From positions 1 through 64,000 of the forward strand of contig NZ_RCHC01000003.1 in the NCBI RefSeq assembly GCF_003664645.1: DNA of 64,000 nucleotides. Reading direction: 5' to 3'. This stretch comes from Acinetobacter chengduensis. GTDB lineage: Bacteria > Pseudomonadota > Gammaproteobacteria > Pseudomonadales > Moraxellaceae. A program made the translations under genes and the position numbers. Positions within the stretch are counted from its first letter, which is position 1. Each line of letters opens with the position of its first letter. The notes below the pieces were generated by a model, which saw nothing but the letters and a program-made list of their open reading frames with translations, ran no database searches and was not told where the DNA came from. Below are positions 57,737 to 64,000 of this stretch, in pieces.

Positions 57737-58960
57737 ATGAAACTTACGACGCTTCAATCTGCCATTTTACTTAGTGCATGTACTAGTCCTATGGCTTTTG
57801 CTGGTGGCTTAGACCGCTCTGGTCAATCTATTTCTGCCTTTTTACAGCCTGGTAATTACTTTGAAGCAGGCATTTCTGTGCTTGACCCTTCTGTTTCAGG
57901 TCAAGACAAAAATGGCAATACGGCCAACAATATGGCCGGAGATTACTATTTCCCCAGCACGGCGTTAAAAGTTCAAGCGACAGACCATATTTCATTAGGT
58001 TTACTATATGACCAACCTTATGGTGCAGATGCAGAATATTCAGGGGAAAATGCGTTTGTCTCTGGCGCCAATATTGCGCCTTTAGGCATTTCTGGCGGTA
58101 CAGAAGTTACAGTTAAAACGCAAAGCTTGTCATTGCTTATGGGCTACCAACCCAATGAAAATTGGAACCTCTATGCAGGCCCTGTTTACCAATCTGTCAA
58201 TGGTGATGTGAAATTACGTGGCGCATTATTCTCTGTTTTAGATGGTTATAACCTCGAAACGGGTAATGACTATTCATGGGGCTGGTTAGCAGGCGTTGCT
58301 TATCAAATTCCTGAAATTGCTTTAAAAGCATCTTTAACATATCGTTCTGAAGTCGAACATAAAATTGATGCGAAAGAACAAATTGATTATGCACGCATTG
58401 CATTAAAACCGTATGTGACAGCAGGTCAACTCAATTTAAGCACCAACCCTGTTGATACATTTACCTTTTCTACACCGCAATCTGTGAACTTAGACCTACA
58501 GACTGGCATTATGGCCAATACCATTGCCTTTGCGAATATTCGCTGGGTAAACTGGTCTAACTTTGTTGTACGTCCTTTTAAATTGGGTCAAGTGAGCCAA
58601 GCAACTGGCCCATTGGTTGGCAAACCAAATGGTTACAACCTCATTGATTATAAAGATGATCAAATTTCTGTAAATGCAGGTGTTGGCCGTAAGTTTAACG
58701 ATAAATGGGCTGCAAACCTTTCTGTAGGTTGGGACTCTGGCGCAGGTAATCCTGTTACTACACTTGGCCCAACAGAAGGTTACTGGTCTGTAGGTACAGG
58801 CGTACGTTATAGCCCCGCAAAAAATTACTTTATTGGCGCAGGTATTAAATACTTCTGGTTAGGTGATGCCGATGCCGTAACAGGTGCACATACTGAAGCT
58901 GGCCGTTTTAGTAATAACCATGCTGTAGGTTATGGTCTAAATATTGGCTATAGTTTCTAA
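57737..58960 (+). CDS. FadL-type outer membrane channel
   Basis: The protein is 407 residues with a signal peptide cleaving after MAFA. The next segment, GGLDRSGQSISAFLQPGNYFEAGISVLDPSVSG, is the FadL-type hatch start. The remaining beta strands close with NNHAVGYGLNIGYSF and terminal Phe. FadL proteins form 14-strand barrels that take up long-chain fatty acids or hydrophobic aromatics. Length and opening fit the Acinetobacter/Pseudomonas FadL group. The upstream HxlR regulator is divergent; co-regulation is possible. Confidence 0.92.
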   Translation: MKLTTLQSAILLSACTSPMAFAGGLDRSGQSISAFLQPGNYFEAGISVLDPSVSGQDKNGNTANNMAGDYYFPSTALKVQATDHISLGLLYDQPYGADAEYSGENAFVSGANIAPLGISGGTEVTVKTQSLSLLMGYQPNENWNLYAGPVYQSVNGDVKLRGALFSVLDGYNLETGNDYSWGWLAGVAYQIPEIALKASLTYRSEVEHKIDAKEQIDYARIALKPYVTAGQLNLSTNPVDTFTFSTPQSVNLDLQTGIMANTIAFANIRWVNWSNFVVRPFKLGQVSQATGPLVGKPNGYNLIDYKDDQISVNAGVGRKFNDKWAANLSVGWDSGAGNPVTTLGPTEGYWSVGTGVRYSPAKNYFIGAGIKYFWLGDADAVTGAHTEAGRFSNNHAVGYGLNIGYSF

Positions 58961-58975
58961 GTTTAGATCAAAAAC

Positions 58976-59007
58976 AAAAAAGCCTCTGTTCATCAGAGGC
59001 TTTTTAA
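58976..59007. terminator. Bidirectional terminator between FadL and cobS
   Basis: AAAAAGCCTCTG (58977-58988), 5-nt loop, CAGAGGCTTTTT (58994-59005), T run on the plus strand and A run on its left. Confidence 0.88.
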
Positions 59008-59052: not shown

Positions 59053-59799
59053 TTATGCCAATATAAAATAACTTCCCAGCACAAAAGCCAAAAGGCTCAC
59101 ACATTCACAAATTTCAATACTTGCACCTACCGTATCCCCCGTAATACCGCCAATACGTTGCTTAAATTTACGGCGCAAATACAACAAACCTAAAATAGTC
59201 GCTAAGCTTGCAATACATCCTAAAACTGAAGAATATAAAGACGAAATCACCACAAACAGCATTATGGCCAACGCTATTTTTTTAGGAATATACGATGCCA
59301 TTGAACTGCCTAGTCCTTTCTCACGTACATAATCTGTAGTTAAAAACAAAAACATCGGTGCTAAACGACCTAGAACTGGAAATAACACTAAAGCGCTATA
59401 TAGTTGCTTTTGGATTAATAAGTACAACGCAGACCATTTTAATAAACAGATGATGATGAGGCTCAGCACACCAATCGGCCCACAAGCAGGATCTTTCATA
59501 ATTTTAAGTGTGCGCTCAGCATCACCAAAACCACCCACCCATGCATCAGCAGTATCAGCGAGACCATCTAAATGTAGGCCACCTGTTAGCCATATCCACA
59601 GCACTAAAATGATACTGGCCGACAATATCGCAGGAACCGCCTGTAGCAACATCGCTATACCACAGAGTATCGCGCCAATAATTAAACCAACAAGTGGATA
59701 AAACAGCACAGACTGTCCATTTTGTTGCTTGCTCGGCATAGCTTTGAGCTGTACTGGAAATGTAGTAAGAAATTGAAGCGCTATCCAAAATGGCATCAT
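59053..59799 (-). CDS. cobS: Adenosylcobinamide-GDP ribazoletransferase CobS
   Basis: CobS joins adenosylcobinamide-GDP and alpha-ribazole(-phosphate) to make cobalamin, in the inner membrane. The protein is 248 residues from ATG 59799, whose ATGA overlaps the cobC stop; an extension to 59853 was rejected. It has seven hydrophobic helices and the typical opening IALQFLTTFPVQLK, then FYPLVGLIIGAIL, WLTGGLHLDGLADTADAW and MKDPACGPIGVLSLIIICLLKW. The GLHLDGLADTADA is the magnesium site. Last gene of the cob operon. Confidence 0.95.
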   Translation of the reverse strand: MMPFWIALQFLTTFPVQLKAMPSKQQNGQSVLFYPLVGLIIGAILCGIAMLLQAVPAILSASIILVLWIWLTGGLHLDGLADTADAWVGGFGDAERTLKIMKDPACGPIGVLSLIIICLLKWSALYLLIQKQLYSALVLFPVLGRLAPMFLFLTTDYVREKGLGSSMASYIPKKIALAIMLFVVISSLYSSVLGCIASLATILGLLYLRRKFKQRIGGITGDTVGASIEICECVSLLAFVLGSYFILA

Positions 59800-60437
59800 A
59801 AAGCTGATTCCTTGGCATGAACCAGAGTCAAATTTATTGCATTTGTGCCACAAAAATGATTGAGCTGCCCTAAATCTGCCACCATTTTGAGTAAATCATT
59901 GAGGGGTAGGTTTTGGGCTTTACATTTAAGGAGCTTAATTACTCCACCATGACTAATCACCAAAGCCTTTTTTAGTCCATTCTCTTGCATATAGGCCATC
60001 ATTCGCTCAACGGCTTGACTCACCCGTATATCAAACTGTGGCAACGTTTCTGCATTAGGCGGGCTAAATTCAGTAGGTTGTAACCAAAATTTTTCCAGTT
60101 GATCGGGCACAGTTTCGTACAAAAACTGCGTGCTTTGCCCTTCCCAGTCACCAAAATGCATTTCTTGCAACTGTGGTAGGCAATGCAAATCTAATTTTAG
60201 TTGTGTTGCAATTGACTGCGCAAAGTGCTGACAACGTTGCAGTGGTGAACTAAAAATCACATCCCAGCTTCGCCCCGCATCCATCGCATGTTGTAGCGTT
60301 TGCTGCATTTGTTGCCAGCCTGTTTGTGTCAATGCATCATCGGTTGAGCCACGTAAAGTATGGCTCAGTTCAGTTTCGCCGTGACGTATCACATCTAAAA
60401 TCAACATTTCTGCTGAAGTAACTGCCTGACTCGACAT
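59796..60437 (-). CDS. cobC: Alpha-ribazole phosphatase CobC-like (histidine phosphatase)
   Basis: This 213-residue histidine phosphatase has the active-site VIRHGETELSH near residue 18, a second SSPLQRCQHFAQSI, and the catalytic His segment ALVISHGGVIKLL. In the cobalamin pathway the family removes the phosphate from alpha-ribazole phosphate; the context (between cobT and cobS) supports that role. ATG 60437 overlaps the cobT stop (TAATG); an internal ATG 60407 is also possible. CobC function is inferred from context and fold. Confidence 0.88.
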   Translation of the reverse strand: MSSQAVTSAEMLILDVIRHGETELSHTLRGSTDDALTQTGWQQMQQTLQHAMDAGRSWDVIFSSPLQRCQHFAQSIATQLKLDLHCLPQLQEMHFGDWEGQSTQFLYETVPDQLEKFWLQPTEFSPPNAETLPQFDIRVSQAVERMMAYMQENGLKKALVISHGGVIKLLKCKAQNLPLNDLLKMVADLGQLNHFCGTNAINLTLVHAKESAL

Positions 60438-61489
60438 TACACCTTATCGCCTATGACAGCAGCTTCAGCAAAAGTAGCCATATTATTGTGCAAGCTACAT
60501 GCTAGCTTAATTAGGCCAAGTGCAGCACCAGCACCACTGCCTTCACCTAAACGTAAATTAAGCTTCAACAAAGGTTCGGCGTTCAATTCATCTAACAAAC
60601 GACGGTGACCATATTCGGCAGATTGATGACCGAATAGCATCCATTCACGTACTTGCGGATTTAATCGAACTGCCAATAAAGCTGAAACTGTACTAATAAA
60701 ACCGTCAACTACCATTGCTAAGCCCAATTGCGCACAGCGAATATATGCACCTGTCATGGCTGCAATTTCTAAGCCACCAACCGCAGTTAATGCTTTAAAA
60801 GCATCCTGTTGCACATACGCCTGATGTAATGCCAAAGCTTGATCAATCACTTGTTTTTTATGTGCTAATTGCTCTGCTCGAATTCCTGTACCTACACCTG
60901 TTAACTTTTCTGCAGATTCATTTAATAAAAAGCATGCAACAGCAGATGCAGAACAAGTATTACCAATACCCATCTCACCCGCGACATAAATAGATGCCTG
61001 CTCAGCAAAGGCTTTTTCGGCACTAAGATAGCCTAGTTGCATCGCCTGCAAGCACTGCTCTTCAGTCATAGCAGCTTGACGTGCAAAATTTGCAGTTCCT
61101 TGCATAATACAGTGACGCTCTACCCCAGCGTAATCATAAACTTCACCTACAGAACCACAATCAATCACCTGTAAGTTTGCATTGTATTCTTTGGCAATCA
61201 CACTAATACATGCACCGCCCGAAGTGAAATTTTGTAGCATCTGGCGTGTTACAGCCTGTGGATAGGCCGAAATATTTTCTTCCATCACACCATGATCGCC
61301 TGCAAAAATACAGATCCATGGTCGGTCTATAGAAGGACGAGGCTGATCTTGTAAAGCGGCTAATAATACCGCTGTGCGTTCTAATTCAGACAAAGAACCT
61401 GTAGGTTTGGTTAATTGAAGCTGTCGTACTTCAGCCTGCTGTTTTGCATTTTCACTTGGGGCTTTACATGCATTTAACCACCAACTCAT
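60437..61489 (-). CDS. cobT: Nicotinate-nucleotide-dimethylbenzimidazole phosphoribosyltransferase CobT
   Basis: CobT activates 5,6-dimethylbenzimidazole to alpha-ribazole phosphate. The 350-residue protein shows FAGDHGVMEENISAYPQAVTRQMLQNFTSGGACI, GEMGIGNTCSASAVACFLL, TAVGGLEIAAMTGAYIRCA, MLFGHQSAEYGHRRLL and LRLGEGSGAGAALGLIKLA, the full set of CobT landmarks (catalytic Glu in GEGSGA). It starts at ATG 61489 overlapping the cobU stop (ATGA). Confidence 0.97.
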   Translation of the reverse strand: MSWWLNACKAPSENAKQQAEVRQLQLTKPTGSLSELERTAVLLAALQDQPRPSIDRPWICIFAGDHGVMEENISAYPQAVTRQMLQNFTSGGACISVIAKEYNANLQVIDCGSVGEVYDYAGVERHCIMQGTANFARQAAMTEEQCLQAMQLGYLSAEKAFAEQASIYVAGEMGIGNTCSASAVACFLLNESAEKLTGVGTGIRAEQLAHKKQVIDQALALHQAYVQQDAFKALTAVGGLEIAAMTGAYIRCAQLGLAMVVDGFISTVSALLAVRLNPQVREWMLFGHQSAEYGHRRLLDELNAEPLLKLNLRLGEGSGAGAALGLIKLACSLHNNMATFAEAAVIGDKV

Positions 61490-62010
61490 TCTTTATCTCC
61501 TTTTAAAATCATGGGAAAACCTGCTACACAAAATACAACTTTATCTGCAATTTGGCCTAACTGCTGGTGCAAACGCCCTGTTTCATCAACAAATTTACGA
61601 CTTATTTGCCCCATCGGCACTACACCGAGCCCCGTTTCATTACTGACTAAAATAATGTCCGATTGTAATGTAGGCAGCACGTCTAATAACTTTTGACATT
61701 CTATGGCTTGGTACGAGGCTTGTTCATCTTGCATGAGTAAATTACTCATCCATAGGGTCAAGCAATCAACCAAAATGACTTGACCCGCCTGATCCAGTGA
61801 TTGTAAACACGTTGCCAATTGCAAGGGTTCTTCAATTACCCGCCAAGATGCAGGTCGCTGTGCTTGATGATGTGTAATACGTTCAGCCATTTCATCATCC
61901 CAAGCTTGTGCAGTCGCGATGTAGGTCACAGCCATATTGGACTGCTGTGCAGTGCCTTCAGCTAAACGACTTTTACCCGAGCGTGCGCCACCCAATATCA
62001 ATTGAATCAT
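61486..62010 (-). CDS. cobU: Adenosylcobinamide kinase/guanylyltransferase CobU (CobP)
   Basis: CobU phosphorylates and guanylylates adenosylcobinamide. The 174-residue protein has the P-loop LGGARSGKSRLAEGTA, VTYIATAQAWDDEMAERITHHQAQRP (with the guanylyl-acceptor His region), VILVDCLTLWMSNLL, and SNETGLGVVPMGQISRKFVDETGRLHQQLG. ATGA overlap with the gene before it. These enzymes salvage cobinamide; no de novo corrin genes are in the window. Confidence 0.96.
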   Translation of the reverse strand: MIQLILGGARSGKSRLAEGTAQQSNMAVTYIATAQAWDDEMAERITHHQAQRPASWRVIEEPLQLATCLQSLDQAGQVILVDCLTLWMSNLLMQDEQASYQAIECQKLLDVLPTLQSDIILVSNETGLGVVPMGQISRKFVDETGRLHQQLGQIADKVVFCVAGFPMILKGDKE

Positions 62011-62639
62011 AATGAACCTAAGTGAAAATAGTGTTGAGCCATTAACTCAGCTTGTAATTGCTGGGCGTGATAGGTACCAAAGGTTAAGGCATTCACCTCA
62101 AATTCGAAACTTTGCTGTTGCACTTCTGCTACCCATGCGAAGACTTCATTGCTATTTAAATTATGCCCATACAAACCCAAAGTAATATGCGGGCAGTAAT
62201 CTAAAGGTGCGATTTCATCCGAGCACATATTAAGGGCCTGACGGATTTGTCCTAAGACCTGATCTGGATCTTCAATTTCTACAAATAATGCACTTTCAAA
62301 GCTATTGATTTTGCCTGTTTTAAGGCGAAATGGCCGTACGTTCAATTGTTGTAATTGATGCTGGTGTATCTGTAATTGCTTCACACTAAAGTTATCGCTA
62401 GCACTGTGCTGTGCGTTCCAAAATCCACATATAAATAGTGTGATATGAAATTGGCGCGTATTGGGTTGTAATAATATATCCGCAAATTGCTGACGTAATT
62501 GTGATAAATACGTCAGCAGTGCTGGTGAATGTATTTCAAGATACCATAATGAAAACTCTGTGCGCCCCAAATGCCATTCAGGATAATCTTGTTGTAGCGT
62601 GGCAATCACTGGCATATTTGGCTGGAGAAACACAAACAA
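62007..62639 (-). CDS. 2H phosphoesterase-superfamily protein in the cobalamin operon
   Basis: The protein is up to 210 residues and carries two His-x-Thr motifs, in RQFHITLFICGF and DYCPHITLGLYG, the signature of the 2H phosphoesterase fold (2'-5' RNA ligase/cyclic phosphodiesterase relatives). Those enzymes act on 2'-5' or 2',3'-cyclic phosphate bonds. It overlaps cobU by ATGA, so it is co-translated with cobalamin genes. No ATG precedes the first domain part: TTG 62639 or GTG 62633 would start it, otherwise ATG 62615. A role in the pathway (for example on a nucleotide-loop phosphate) is inferred only from context. Confidence 0.8.
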   Translation of the reverse strand: MFVFLQPNMPVIATLQQDYPEWHLGRTEFSLWYLEIHSPALLTYLSQLRQQFADILLQPNTRQFHITLFICGFWNAQHSASDNFSVKQLQIHQHQLQQLNVRPFRLKTGKINSFESALFVEIEDPDQVLGQIRQALNMCSDEIAPLDYCPHITLGLYGHNLNSNEVFAWVAEVQQQSFEFEVNALTFGTYHAQQLQAELMAQHYFHLGSL

Positions 62640-62647
62640 TTCACAAT

Positions 62648-62782
62648 AAAAATTGGTAACTTACTTTAACCATGTTTCAGCATGAAGACCATGCTTAAGG
62701 GCGGTCAATTGAATTAACAATATTCACTTTGAGTTGAATATTGCTCATCTTCTAGCCAATTGTTCATAAATTACCAATTTTT
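62648..62782 (-). promoter_or_regulatory. Structured RNA between mtlD-type gene and the cob operon
   Basis: Outer arms AAAAATTGGTAA (62648-62659) and TTACCAATTTTT (62771-62782) are a perfect 12-bp pair. Inside, CAATATTCA (62718-62726) and TGAATATTG (62735-62743) make a perfect 9-bp hairpin with an 8-nt loop. On the minus strand the outer 3' arm ends in five T, just before the operon's start codon. It could be the terminator of the upstream gene, an attenuator or a leader. No cobalamin-riboswitch B12 box was found. Confidence 0.5.
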
Positions 62783-62821
62783 TATAACATTTACTTCACC
62801 CAAGACTTTGAATCATTCAAT

Positions 62822-64000
62822 CTAAAAATCATCTTGTGCTAATTGATTCTGTAACACGCTATCAATCGCATTAAAACTTTGCTGGATCAGGTTCGGATCT
62901 GCATCTAACAAGGCAAATTGTTTTTGTAAAAATAACCGTACATCGGCTTTAGAATATTGTAGTTGTTGAACAGCATACATCGCCCCAAATACAACACCTT
63001 GTTCTAAAGCAGTTGTTGGCAATCCATGTGCAAGGTTTGTTTGCAATGAACCCAACACACGTTCACCAGCTTTTAACTTACGCAAAGGATCACGTGCGAC
63101 GCGCTCACATGGGTCTTTAAATGCATTATGGCAAGATTTTAAAAATGCCTGAGCCAATTCTGTTAAATCATGGTGATAATTTGGCATACTGATATTTAAA
63201 CCCGCAGTGACTTCTTTAAGTAGCGACTGGCAAAACAAACTTACACGTTCATCTGCCATCGCTAAGCCAATCGTCTCGTGCCCCAATGCACTGCCATACC
63301 ATGCAGTCATTGCATGCACACCATTCCATAACCGGTTTTTAATTCGCTGAATATCTTGAATATCATCCACCAAAATCATTTGGCGCATTTTACCCAGCAA
63401 AGGACTGTTATTTTCCACATACAAAGGCATATTCAGCTCTGCATGAAATAAAACTAAATCCATATTTTGTAATGCGTGGCTCGGCTGTAAATTACGGCGT
63501 AAGTGATCAATGTAAATGGTCGCTTGCTGTTCTTGCTCAAGCGTTAATTGAGTCGCATCATCCCACTGCTGTTGTACATCATCTTCAGCATCTGCTTGCT
63601 GTTGTTGAAAAATTCCATGCTTAATTTTCAGTTGACGATATAAATTTTGATCGCTCAGCTTAGACACCATACGATTCACCACCGTATCGCAAAAATGATG
63701 CTGATGCATAATCTTCTCTGCAATCTCTGCATCAGTGATGTCCAATAACGCTTGATGAACCAGTTGCATGAACAGCGCTTTTGCACCAATTTTATTTAAG
63801 ATAATTAAAAATGTGAGCGGAAGCTCTTGTTGTTCAAACGCAACATGACGTGCCATCAGTCCCTGTGCAATGGTTTTTGCTTCTTGCACTAAGGCAGACT
63901 CAGGTAAACACACCGCCACCATCGTCGATTCCGTATACATCTGTTGCATCTGCTCAAGATTGCTGGCATCAATGACTTGTATATTATCAATGCGCTCGTC
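62822..64000 (-). CDS. mtlD: Mannitol-1-phosphate 5-dehydrogenase-type protein (5' end outside window)
   Basis: The frame stays open to the right edge, so the start is beyond 64000. The visible 393 codons end at the TAG of 62822. The mannitol dehydrogenase signature DTVVNRMVSK is present, as well as KNRLWNGVHAMTAWYGSALGHETIG (catalytic lysine and His area), then the C-terminal helical domain. In Acinetobacter, MtlD is known as a bifunctional enzyme with an N-terminal HAD phosphatase and this dehydrogenase domain, making mannitol as a compatible solute. The N-terminal domain lies outside the window, so this is untested here. Confidence 0.78.
   Translation of the reverse strand, partial: DERIDNIQVIDASNLEQMQQMYTESTMVAVCLPESALVQEAKTIAQGLMARHVAFEQQELPLTFLIILNKIGAKALFMQLVHQALLDITDAEIAEKIMHQHHFCDTVVNRMVSKLSDQNLYRQLKIKHGIFQQQQADAEDDVQQQWDDATQLTLEQEQQATIYIDHLRRNLQPSHALQNMDLVLFHAELNMPLYVENNSPLLGKMRQMILVDDIQDIQRIKNRLWNGVHAMTAWYGSALGHETIGLAMADERVSLFCQSLLKEVTAGLNISMPNYHHDLTELAQAFLKSCHNAFKDPCERVARDPLRKLKAGERVLGSLQTNLAHGLPTTALEQGVVFGAMYAVQQLQYSKADVRLFLQKQFALLDADPNLIQQSFNAIDSVLQNQLAQDDF

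Follow-up and report, generated by a model that had tools for sequence, protein, structure and literature searches.

The lower-ligand nucleotide of a cobamide resembles RNA: its 3'-phosphodiester is next to a ribose with a free 2'-OH. Cobamides serve as shared nutrients, and few enzymes are known for reworking those that a cell cannot use. According to PMC7733943, CbiR of Akkermansia, discovered through its gene neighbourhood, is a phosphodiesterase encoded beside cobU, cobT and cobS that can start cobamide remodelling, and in V. cholerae CobS remodels by reversal. The 2H enzymes take cyclic phosphates, or phosphodiesters beside a ribose hydroxyl, as substrates; the characterised members covered in PMC5283653 act on RNA or nucleotides, and some accept ADP-ribose cyclic phosphates. 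A. baumannii salvages cobinamide and, by the analysis of the authors of PMC9426561, lacks corrin-ring synthesis; its loop genes are cobU (A1S_1659), cobT (1660), cobC (1661) and cobS (1663), and cobU, cobS and cobT each complement Salmonella mutants, so that loop assembly itself can do without a 2H protein. The words "phosphoesterase" and "ligT" are absent from the main text of that paper, where we see no sign of a 2H study.

Here we consider a stretch of 64,000 nucleotides from Acinetobacter chengduensis (the window), in which a 2H gene accompanies cobU, cobT, a cobC-like gene and cobS. This is the same operon as that of the related A. baumannii, where cobU, cobS and cobT are reported to be functional (PMC9426561). 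The titles and abstract openings listed for open-licence PMC yielded neither a 2H enzyme in cobamide metabolism nor this gene, which is not proof that none has been described.

The cob operon of the window and its 2H gene

The five genes follow one another on the minus strand in the order 2H, cobU, cobT, cobC, cobS, from 62633 to 59053, and all of them touch or overlap (Table 1). CobU, CobT and CobS pass the NCBIfam cut-offs for function. The chain of overlaps read by the earlier note is borne out: 2H and cobU share an ATGA at 62007-62010 in the sequence, cobU and cobT share another at 61486-61489, cobT and cobC overlap by 1 nt within TAATG at 60437, and cobC and cobS again share an ATGA, provided that cobS starts at ATG 59799, its presumed start, and not at the TTG of the list of open reading frames. 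The stem-loop past cobS likely marks the end of the operon, judging from its match to the terminator consensus. Before the operon, no cobalamin riboswitch was matched by Rfam in the window at gathering threshold, and a permissive search of 62580-62900 gave one plastid match at chance level.

Table 1. Coordinates of the operon features in the window
Feature	Position	Strand	Basis
2H phosphoesterase gene	62007..62633	-	PF13563, conserved H/T columns, predicted 2H fold, conserved GTG
cobU, adenosylcobinamide kinase / adenosylcobinamide-phosphate guanylyltransferase	61486..62010	-	NF004469 219.5 bits (cut-off 161)
cobT, nicotinate-nucleotide:dimethylbenzimidazole phosphoribosyltransferase	60437..61489	-	TIGR03160 407.7 bits (cut-off 319.3)
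cobC-like histidine phosphatase	59796..60437	-	PF00300 E 7.9e-41; TIGR03162 145 bits, below cut-off 162.9
cobS, adenosylcobinamide-GDP ribazoletransferase	59053..59799	-	TIGR00317 144 bits (cut-off 110)
Extended -10-like element TGGTTAAA (putative)	62665..62672	-	39 nt before GTG
Two-way terminator-like stem-loop past cobS	58977..59005	.	12-pair stem, T-rich tails on both strands

On either side of the operon lie genes of other kinds. A convergent gene at 57737-58960, which shares the two-way terminator with cobS, encodes an outer-membrane-type protein that looks by eye like a FadL relative. Upstream, 62822-64000 codes for the C-terminal region of a mannitol-1-phosphate dehydrogenase/phosphatase, a bifunctional enzyme (444.7 bits over the portion of NF046057 that it covers); no gene occurs more often at this place in the genus (39/67 loci).

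The open reading frame 62007-62639, given by the earlier note as the gene, would encode 210 residues from TTG 62639. Its frame and family hold, while its start does not: homologues begin where this frame has its residue 3, which makes 62007-62633 the best reading of the gene, with a conserved GTG start at 62633 and a product of 208 residues. The two HITL motifs already noted in this small protein are HITLF and HITLG (H65/T67 and H151/T153 in the 210-residue numbering), so that two H-x-[ST] motifs stand about 85 residues apart, as in the 2H superfamily. In our alignment A1 of 29 rows (28 distinct, L038 being identical to L021) both histidines and the second threonine are invariant, and the first threonine is replaced by serine in two rows. 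The protein passes the cut-offs of PF13563 (E 1.1e-11, 45.4 bits against 27) and PF02834 (25.5 bits against 23.3) and fails that of the ThpR equivalog TIGR02258 (25.5 bits against 65.7); the AP endonuclease 2 domain PF01261, to which CbiR belongs by type, and the CbiZ domain PF01955 do not appear among its families at E up to 1. Near its N terminus is the sequence D-Y-P-x-W-H-x-G-R, an instance of a subfamily signature, D-[YFC]-x-x-W-H-x-G ... R-Q-x-H-[IV]-[TS], present in most of the aligned rows. The nearest named relative is from A. cumulans (90% identical), and all 8 named loci that match the protein are from Acinetobacter.

A sequence search with the protein returned no solved structure at E up to 10, so a fold search was needed. 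The AlphaFold model, built from nine sequences, has a mean pLDDT of 76.9, with residues 1-13 below 50, and its best structural match has Z 15.8 over 170 residues at an rmsd of 2.8. At the top of the structural alignments stand LigT-like proteins (Z 15.8 to about 14), AKAP18 (14.4) and Usb1 (13.3). By family score, motifs and model, the protein is a member of the 2H phosphoesterase family with a predicted 2H fold. A chance open reading frame was considered and rejected on family score, conservation and selection.

Of the 67 intact copies in the genus, 62 start with GTG, the locus L067 of genome G006 being left out of this count, and a Shine-Dalgarno-like motif precedes the start at 1 of 68 loci. 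The pattern TGnTT[TA]AA lies within -60..-18 of the start at 45 of 68 loci (L102, of genome G086, left out), 39 of them having it at -39 or -38, as against 6 among 272 control segments, each 42 nt long, taken further upstream. We regard the element at 62665..62672 as a putative promoter by its consensus match; a separate promoter scan of the window did not report this site. With a -10-like element, a GTG and a rare Shine-Dalgarno motif, the 2H gene appears to lead the unit, from a weak, conserved start. Such a combination, at 62631-62680 in the window, is unusual for the lead gene of an operon.

The spacing to cobU, counted by hand in 68 species with G006 excluded, is less uniform: the 4-nt overlap of ATGA type occurs in 25, with distances of -13 nt in 15 species, -19 nt in 5 and +1 to +9 nt in 23, the aligned cobU start not being a start codon in 4 of the 68 rows. 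What is conserved is the adjacency of 2H and cobU, not their overlap.

Distribution of the 2H gene within and beyond Acinetobacter

Whether the 2H-cobUTCS order recurs in related genomes had been set beforehand as the test on which the earlier note could fall, and within the genus it came through. Matches to 2H and to cobU each occur in 69 of 99 genus genomes, and the lists, compared by eye, name the same 69, both genes being missed in the same 30; none of the 99 has 2H without cobU. In all 69 carriers 2H is directly before cobU on the same strand, at -19 to +9 nt in 68 of them, the 2H frame of G006 being broken. The absences in G030 (65% complete) and in G031 and G032 (about 90% complete) are weaker because these genomes are incomplete. 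CobT is present in 70 genomes; the extra one, G093, keeps cobT and cobS at its locus L068, where cobU, the cobC-like gene and 2H are undetected in the stretch read and no convincing remnant of 2H or cobU precedes cobT (best E 0.025). The PF13563 profile matches one protein in each of 62 of the 99 genomes, always the cob-linked one (coordinates compared by eye), and none in the 30 genomes that lack the 2H gene; as it fails on 7 of the 69 known copies, the evidence against a second 2H protein of PF13563 type is good and incomplete. Neither CbiZ nor BluB above its cut-off was found among the 99 genomes (0/99 each); below that cut-off the BluB profile has weaker, mostly partial matches in each of the 99 genomes and likewise in all 14 controls.

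Several further observations concern individual loci. Two A. baumannii records listed in PLSDB as plasmids, NZ_CP077849.1 (L211) and NZ_CP104448.1 (L212), carry the 2H gene; their sizes, 3.7 and 4.1 Mb, suggest chromosomes or fused replicons. In other species a protein resembling histidine acid phosphatases, exemplified by L067:4198-5781 (PF00328, E 8.5e-15; N terminus lipoprotein-like by eye), has its gene after cobC in 19 of 78 loci scanned and upstream of 2H in 6, in a scan where 30 of the 78 loci are too short past cobC and some represent the same species twice. The window operon has no such gene, whose product may be another accessory of the pathway.

The 2H frame is shifted in two copies, G006 (L067:1278-1897) and G086 (L102:1538-2165, near residue 22), beside open cobU and cobT frames; sequencing error is a possible cause of both shifts. 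With these two left out of trees and dN/dS alike, 102 non-independent pairs give median dN/dS values of 0.18 (2H) and 0.09 (cobU). The 2H protein is under purifying selection. We considered and rejected a decaying gene for most copies, given this value and 2 of 69 copies frameshifted.

How stable, then, is the pairing of 2H with cobU? An open reading frame of at least 90 codons, the longest being taken, lies within 700 nt upstream of 2H at 67 of the 69 loci, some of these perhaps not being the immediate neighbour. They form 13 similarity groups (39, 7, 5, 3, 3, 2, 2 and six singletons), which we put at about 10 different upstream genes because the singleton L028 resembles the N-terminal portion of the mannitol-phosphate protein that makes up the largest group, and two other singletons, L074 and L087, are short and doubtful. 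The cobU side is constant in all 69 loci. On a species tree from one gene, rpoB, covering 97 of the 99 genomes (G001 and G025 gave no rpoB match), the block switches between present and absent at least 10 times and is missing from 12 separate clades; its deletion as a unit accounts for part of this pattern. The comparison of 2H and cobU trees that the earlier note had suggested gave broad agreement and not full congruence: over 67 genomes the distance correlation is 0.76, as against 0.16 for the best of 1000 label shuffles, and 24 of 64 splits are in common, but 7 of the 26 2H clades that have support are contradicted by supported clades of the cobU tree, so that some exchange or error is present.

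Beyond the genus we examined 15 relatives. The Acinetobacter profile matched 12 of 293 genomes in a sample of the order, 2 of them Acinetobacter and ten spread over five other genera; a class sample of 274 genomes added one relative, a wider profile added two from a phylum sample of 299 genomes, and the plasmid records listed added two more, from Methylibium and Vitreoscilla. Over the stretches read, 14 of the 15 are in no cob operon, so that a label of cobalamin enzyme is unsupported for the subfamily as a whole. Contigs permitting, no cob gene lies within about 7 kb of the first 11 relatives (Acinetobacter and Methylibium queries). Four of these 11, all of genus g41, have cobS about 7, 10, 26 and 46 kb from 2H, and the other seven have within about 27 kb, again contigs permitting, nothing but a weak CobQ-like match near G347 (E 1e-7). 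Cob genes are also lacking within about 10 kb of both phylum finds and, for the Vitreoscilla copy, throughout the preceding 12 kb; behind that copy about 0.7 kb is available. The neighbourhoods of the first 11 relatives, all of them unlinked, have in common only single pairs of genes and one triple. Three more subfamily members used as queries against the plasmid records brought no new records and no new linkage.

CobS is encoded in 11 of 11 non-Acinetobacter carriers tested (the two phylum finds stand outside this count), against a background of 157 of 293 genomes in the order sample, an association with a Fisher p of 0.0016 without kinship correction; by genus, 5 of 5 against 70 of 118 gives about 0.07 by simple arithmetic. 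In the same sample 145 CobS-positive genomes have no match to the 2H subfamily profile.

The one linked relative is on plasmid RPME01 of Methylibium petroleiphilum PM1, where it follows cobT-cobS-cobC with a 1-nt overlap. The cob genes there begin with cobyrinate synthase, cobU, metal receptor and ABC transporter genes, cobO and cbiB, and continue with an aminotransferase, cobyric acid synthase, cobT, cobS, the histidine phosphatase, the 2H relative and a small protein. The Methylibium protein is about 29-29.8% identical over nearly its whole length (profile probability 99.8) and bears the subfamily signature. In the subfamily tree it falls outside the Acinetobacter clade with unlinked relatives between, weakly supported, and the least-change reading has two changes of cob linkage. 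Since it stands at the opposite end of the operon and outside that clade, its linkage is probably an independent association, a single origin being the less probable reading. The small protein directly after it (L209:12675-13295) has a cysteine-rich, QueG-like stretch and a weak match to TIGR00276 (E 1.8e-4, far below cut-off); QueG uses a cobamide, as stated in PMC7733943.

Possible roles in corrinoid salvage

The association of 2H with cob genes is real and reproducible. The cobalamin link drawn by the earlier note stands for Acinetobacter, where adjacency is constant, and gains from the probably independent Methylibium linkage, but does not extend to the whole subfamily; that note was right about the observation and reasonable about its meaning, which our results support in part. 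Very probably, the 2H protein has a role in cobamide metabolism, an estimate that we lowered slightly on account of the second frameshifted copy, that of G086. While this link is well supported, activity, substrate, reaction, purpose and promoter are what we infer.

Our preferred reading, put forward tentatively, sees in the protein an active phosphodiesterase that serves corrinoid salvage only. It would be expressed from its own promoter, along with CobU, CobT, CobC and CobS, and its target in the lower-ligand riboside would be the RNA-like 3'-phosphodiester or a 2',3'-cyclic phosphate. We arrive at this reading because 2H chemistry fits either the loop, with its 3'-phosphodiester and 2'-OH, or a cyclic riboside, and because CbiR provides a precedent. 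In one version, the enzyme would cleave the nucleotide loop, as Usb1 cuts RNA, and release cobinamide for re-use by CobU. In the other, it would open an alpha-riboside 2',3'-cyclic phosphate, arising from loop cleavage or chemical breakdown, as LigT does, so that the riboside could be re-used by CobC and CobS. We lean slightly towards loop cleavage, that is remodelling, over rescue of the cyclic riboside, a choice that sequence alone cannot make.

Could the protein instead be a general 2',3'-cyclic phosphodiesterase of RNA or nucleotides, similar to ThpR/LigT, whose gene lies in the cob operon but which has no part in cobamide chemistry? It has the fold of LigT (Z 14.4) and Usb1 (Z 13.3), and its relatives in other genera mostly have neither cob genes nor a common neighbourhood nearby. 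Yet it falls far short of the ThpR cut-off, and the genus seems not to need a protein of this kind for RNA, since the 30 genomes without the 2H gene lack any PF13563 match, an argument tempered by the copies that this profile misses; moreover, 2H stays by cobU while the upstream gene varies, and cob linkage recurs in Methylibium. We consider this explanation unlikely. A somewhat slimmer chance attaches to house-cleaning, in which the protein would clear a side product of the loop enzymes, for example a cyclic phosphate formed from misused NaMN, NAD or riboside. Loop-assembly genes are its only operon partners in the window, but we know of no cyclic phosphate or similar by-product of CobU, CobT, CobC or CobS, and the many CobS-bearing genomes of the order sample without a subfamily member also speak against it. 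In its favour, ADP-ribose cyclic phosphates are substrates of some 2H enzymes (PMC5283653). Least probable, and in our view very improbable, is a regulatory or structural role, where the lead reading frame would set cobU translation by coupling and enzyme activity would be secondary. Such a role would suit the prevalent GTG, the near-absent Shine-Dalgarno motif, the conserved promoter-like element and the 4-nt overlap in 25 of 68 species; against it, purifying selection acts on the catalytic residues and on the protein as a whole, the two genes do not overlap in 23 of 68 species, and in Methylibium the 2H gene is not the leader.

Corrinoid salvage, which we still prefer, faces objections of its own. 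Breaking down finished cobamides would amount to futile cycling unless the enzyme were selective, and the CobS of the operon might remodel alone, by analogy with V. cholerae (PMC7733943). The frameshifted copies of G006 and G086, the 14 unlinked relatives, the 145 CobS genomes without the subfamily, the clades in conflict between the 2H and cobU trees and the success of A. baumannii cobU, cobS and cobT in Salmonella without 2H count against it as well, and so does the action of characterised 2H enzymes on RNA or nucleotides (PMC5283653). The CobS association, too, weakens when counted by genus.

Linkage to loop genes, as expected of a remodelling enzyme, was found in 69 of 69 genus carriers and in 1 of 15 relatives outside, that of Methylibium. 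A more specific proposal, which we regard as doubtful, is that the 2H protein represents a further type of cobamide-remodelling enzyme, structurally unrelated and of 2H fold, which would cut the loop through attack by the 2'-OH, as an RNase does, would yield cobinamide and an alpha-riboside 2',3'-cyclic phosphate, and was recruited perhaps twice into cob operons. If this is true, Acinetobacter, which makes no corrin ring and seemingly has neither CbiZ nor BluB, exchanges or recycles lower ligands. A 2H enzyme acting on B12 would be the first of its superfamily known to us; such a role would go some way towards explaining salvage in a genus that is widespread, and the Methylibium counterpart is a testable candidate.

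Among known systems, E. coli LigT/ThpR and the LigT-like proteins of Pyrococcus and Thermus match the fold of the model (Z 14.4, 15.8 and 15.4, respectively) and have the paired HxT motifs in common with it (PMC5283653), but the identity to LigT-like proteins is 13-14%, the score is below the ThpR cut-off, and the 2H protein has its own signature and a place in a cob operon. Human Usb1 matches the fold as well (Z 13.3) at about 9% identity; it is an exoribonuclease that leaves a 2',3'-cyclic phosphate, and loop cleavage as we propose it would follow the same chemistry, whereas Usb1 is described as processing U6 snRNA. CbiZ and a reversed CobS would feed the same CobU, CobT and CobS steps, but CbiZ is an amidohydrolase (PMC7733943), not found in the 99 genomes, and CobS is a different enzyme, encoded in the same operon as 2H. 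CbiR is like the 2H protein in that its gene stands beside cobU, cobT and cobS and that it cuts the nucleotide loop, as we propose for 2H. Unlike it, CbiR belongs to the unrelated AP-endonuclease TIM-barrel superfamily and yields Cbi-phosphate and alpha-ribazole (PMC7733943), where the 2H enzyme would yield cobinamide and a cyclic or 2'-phosphate.
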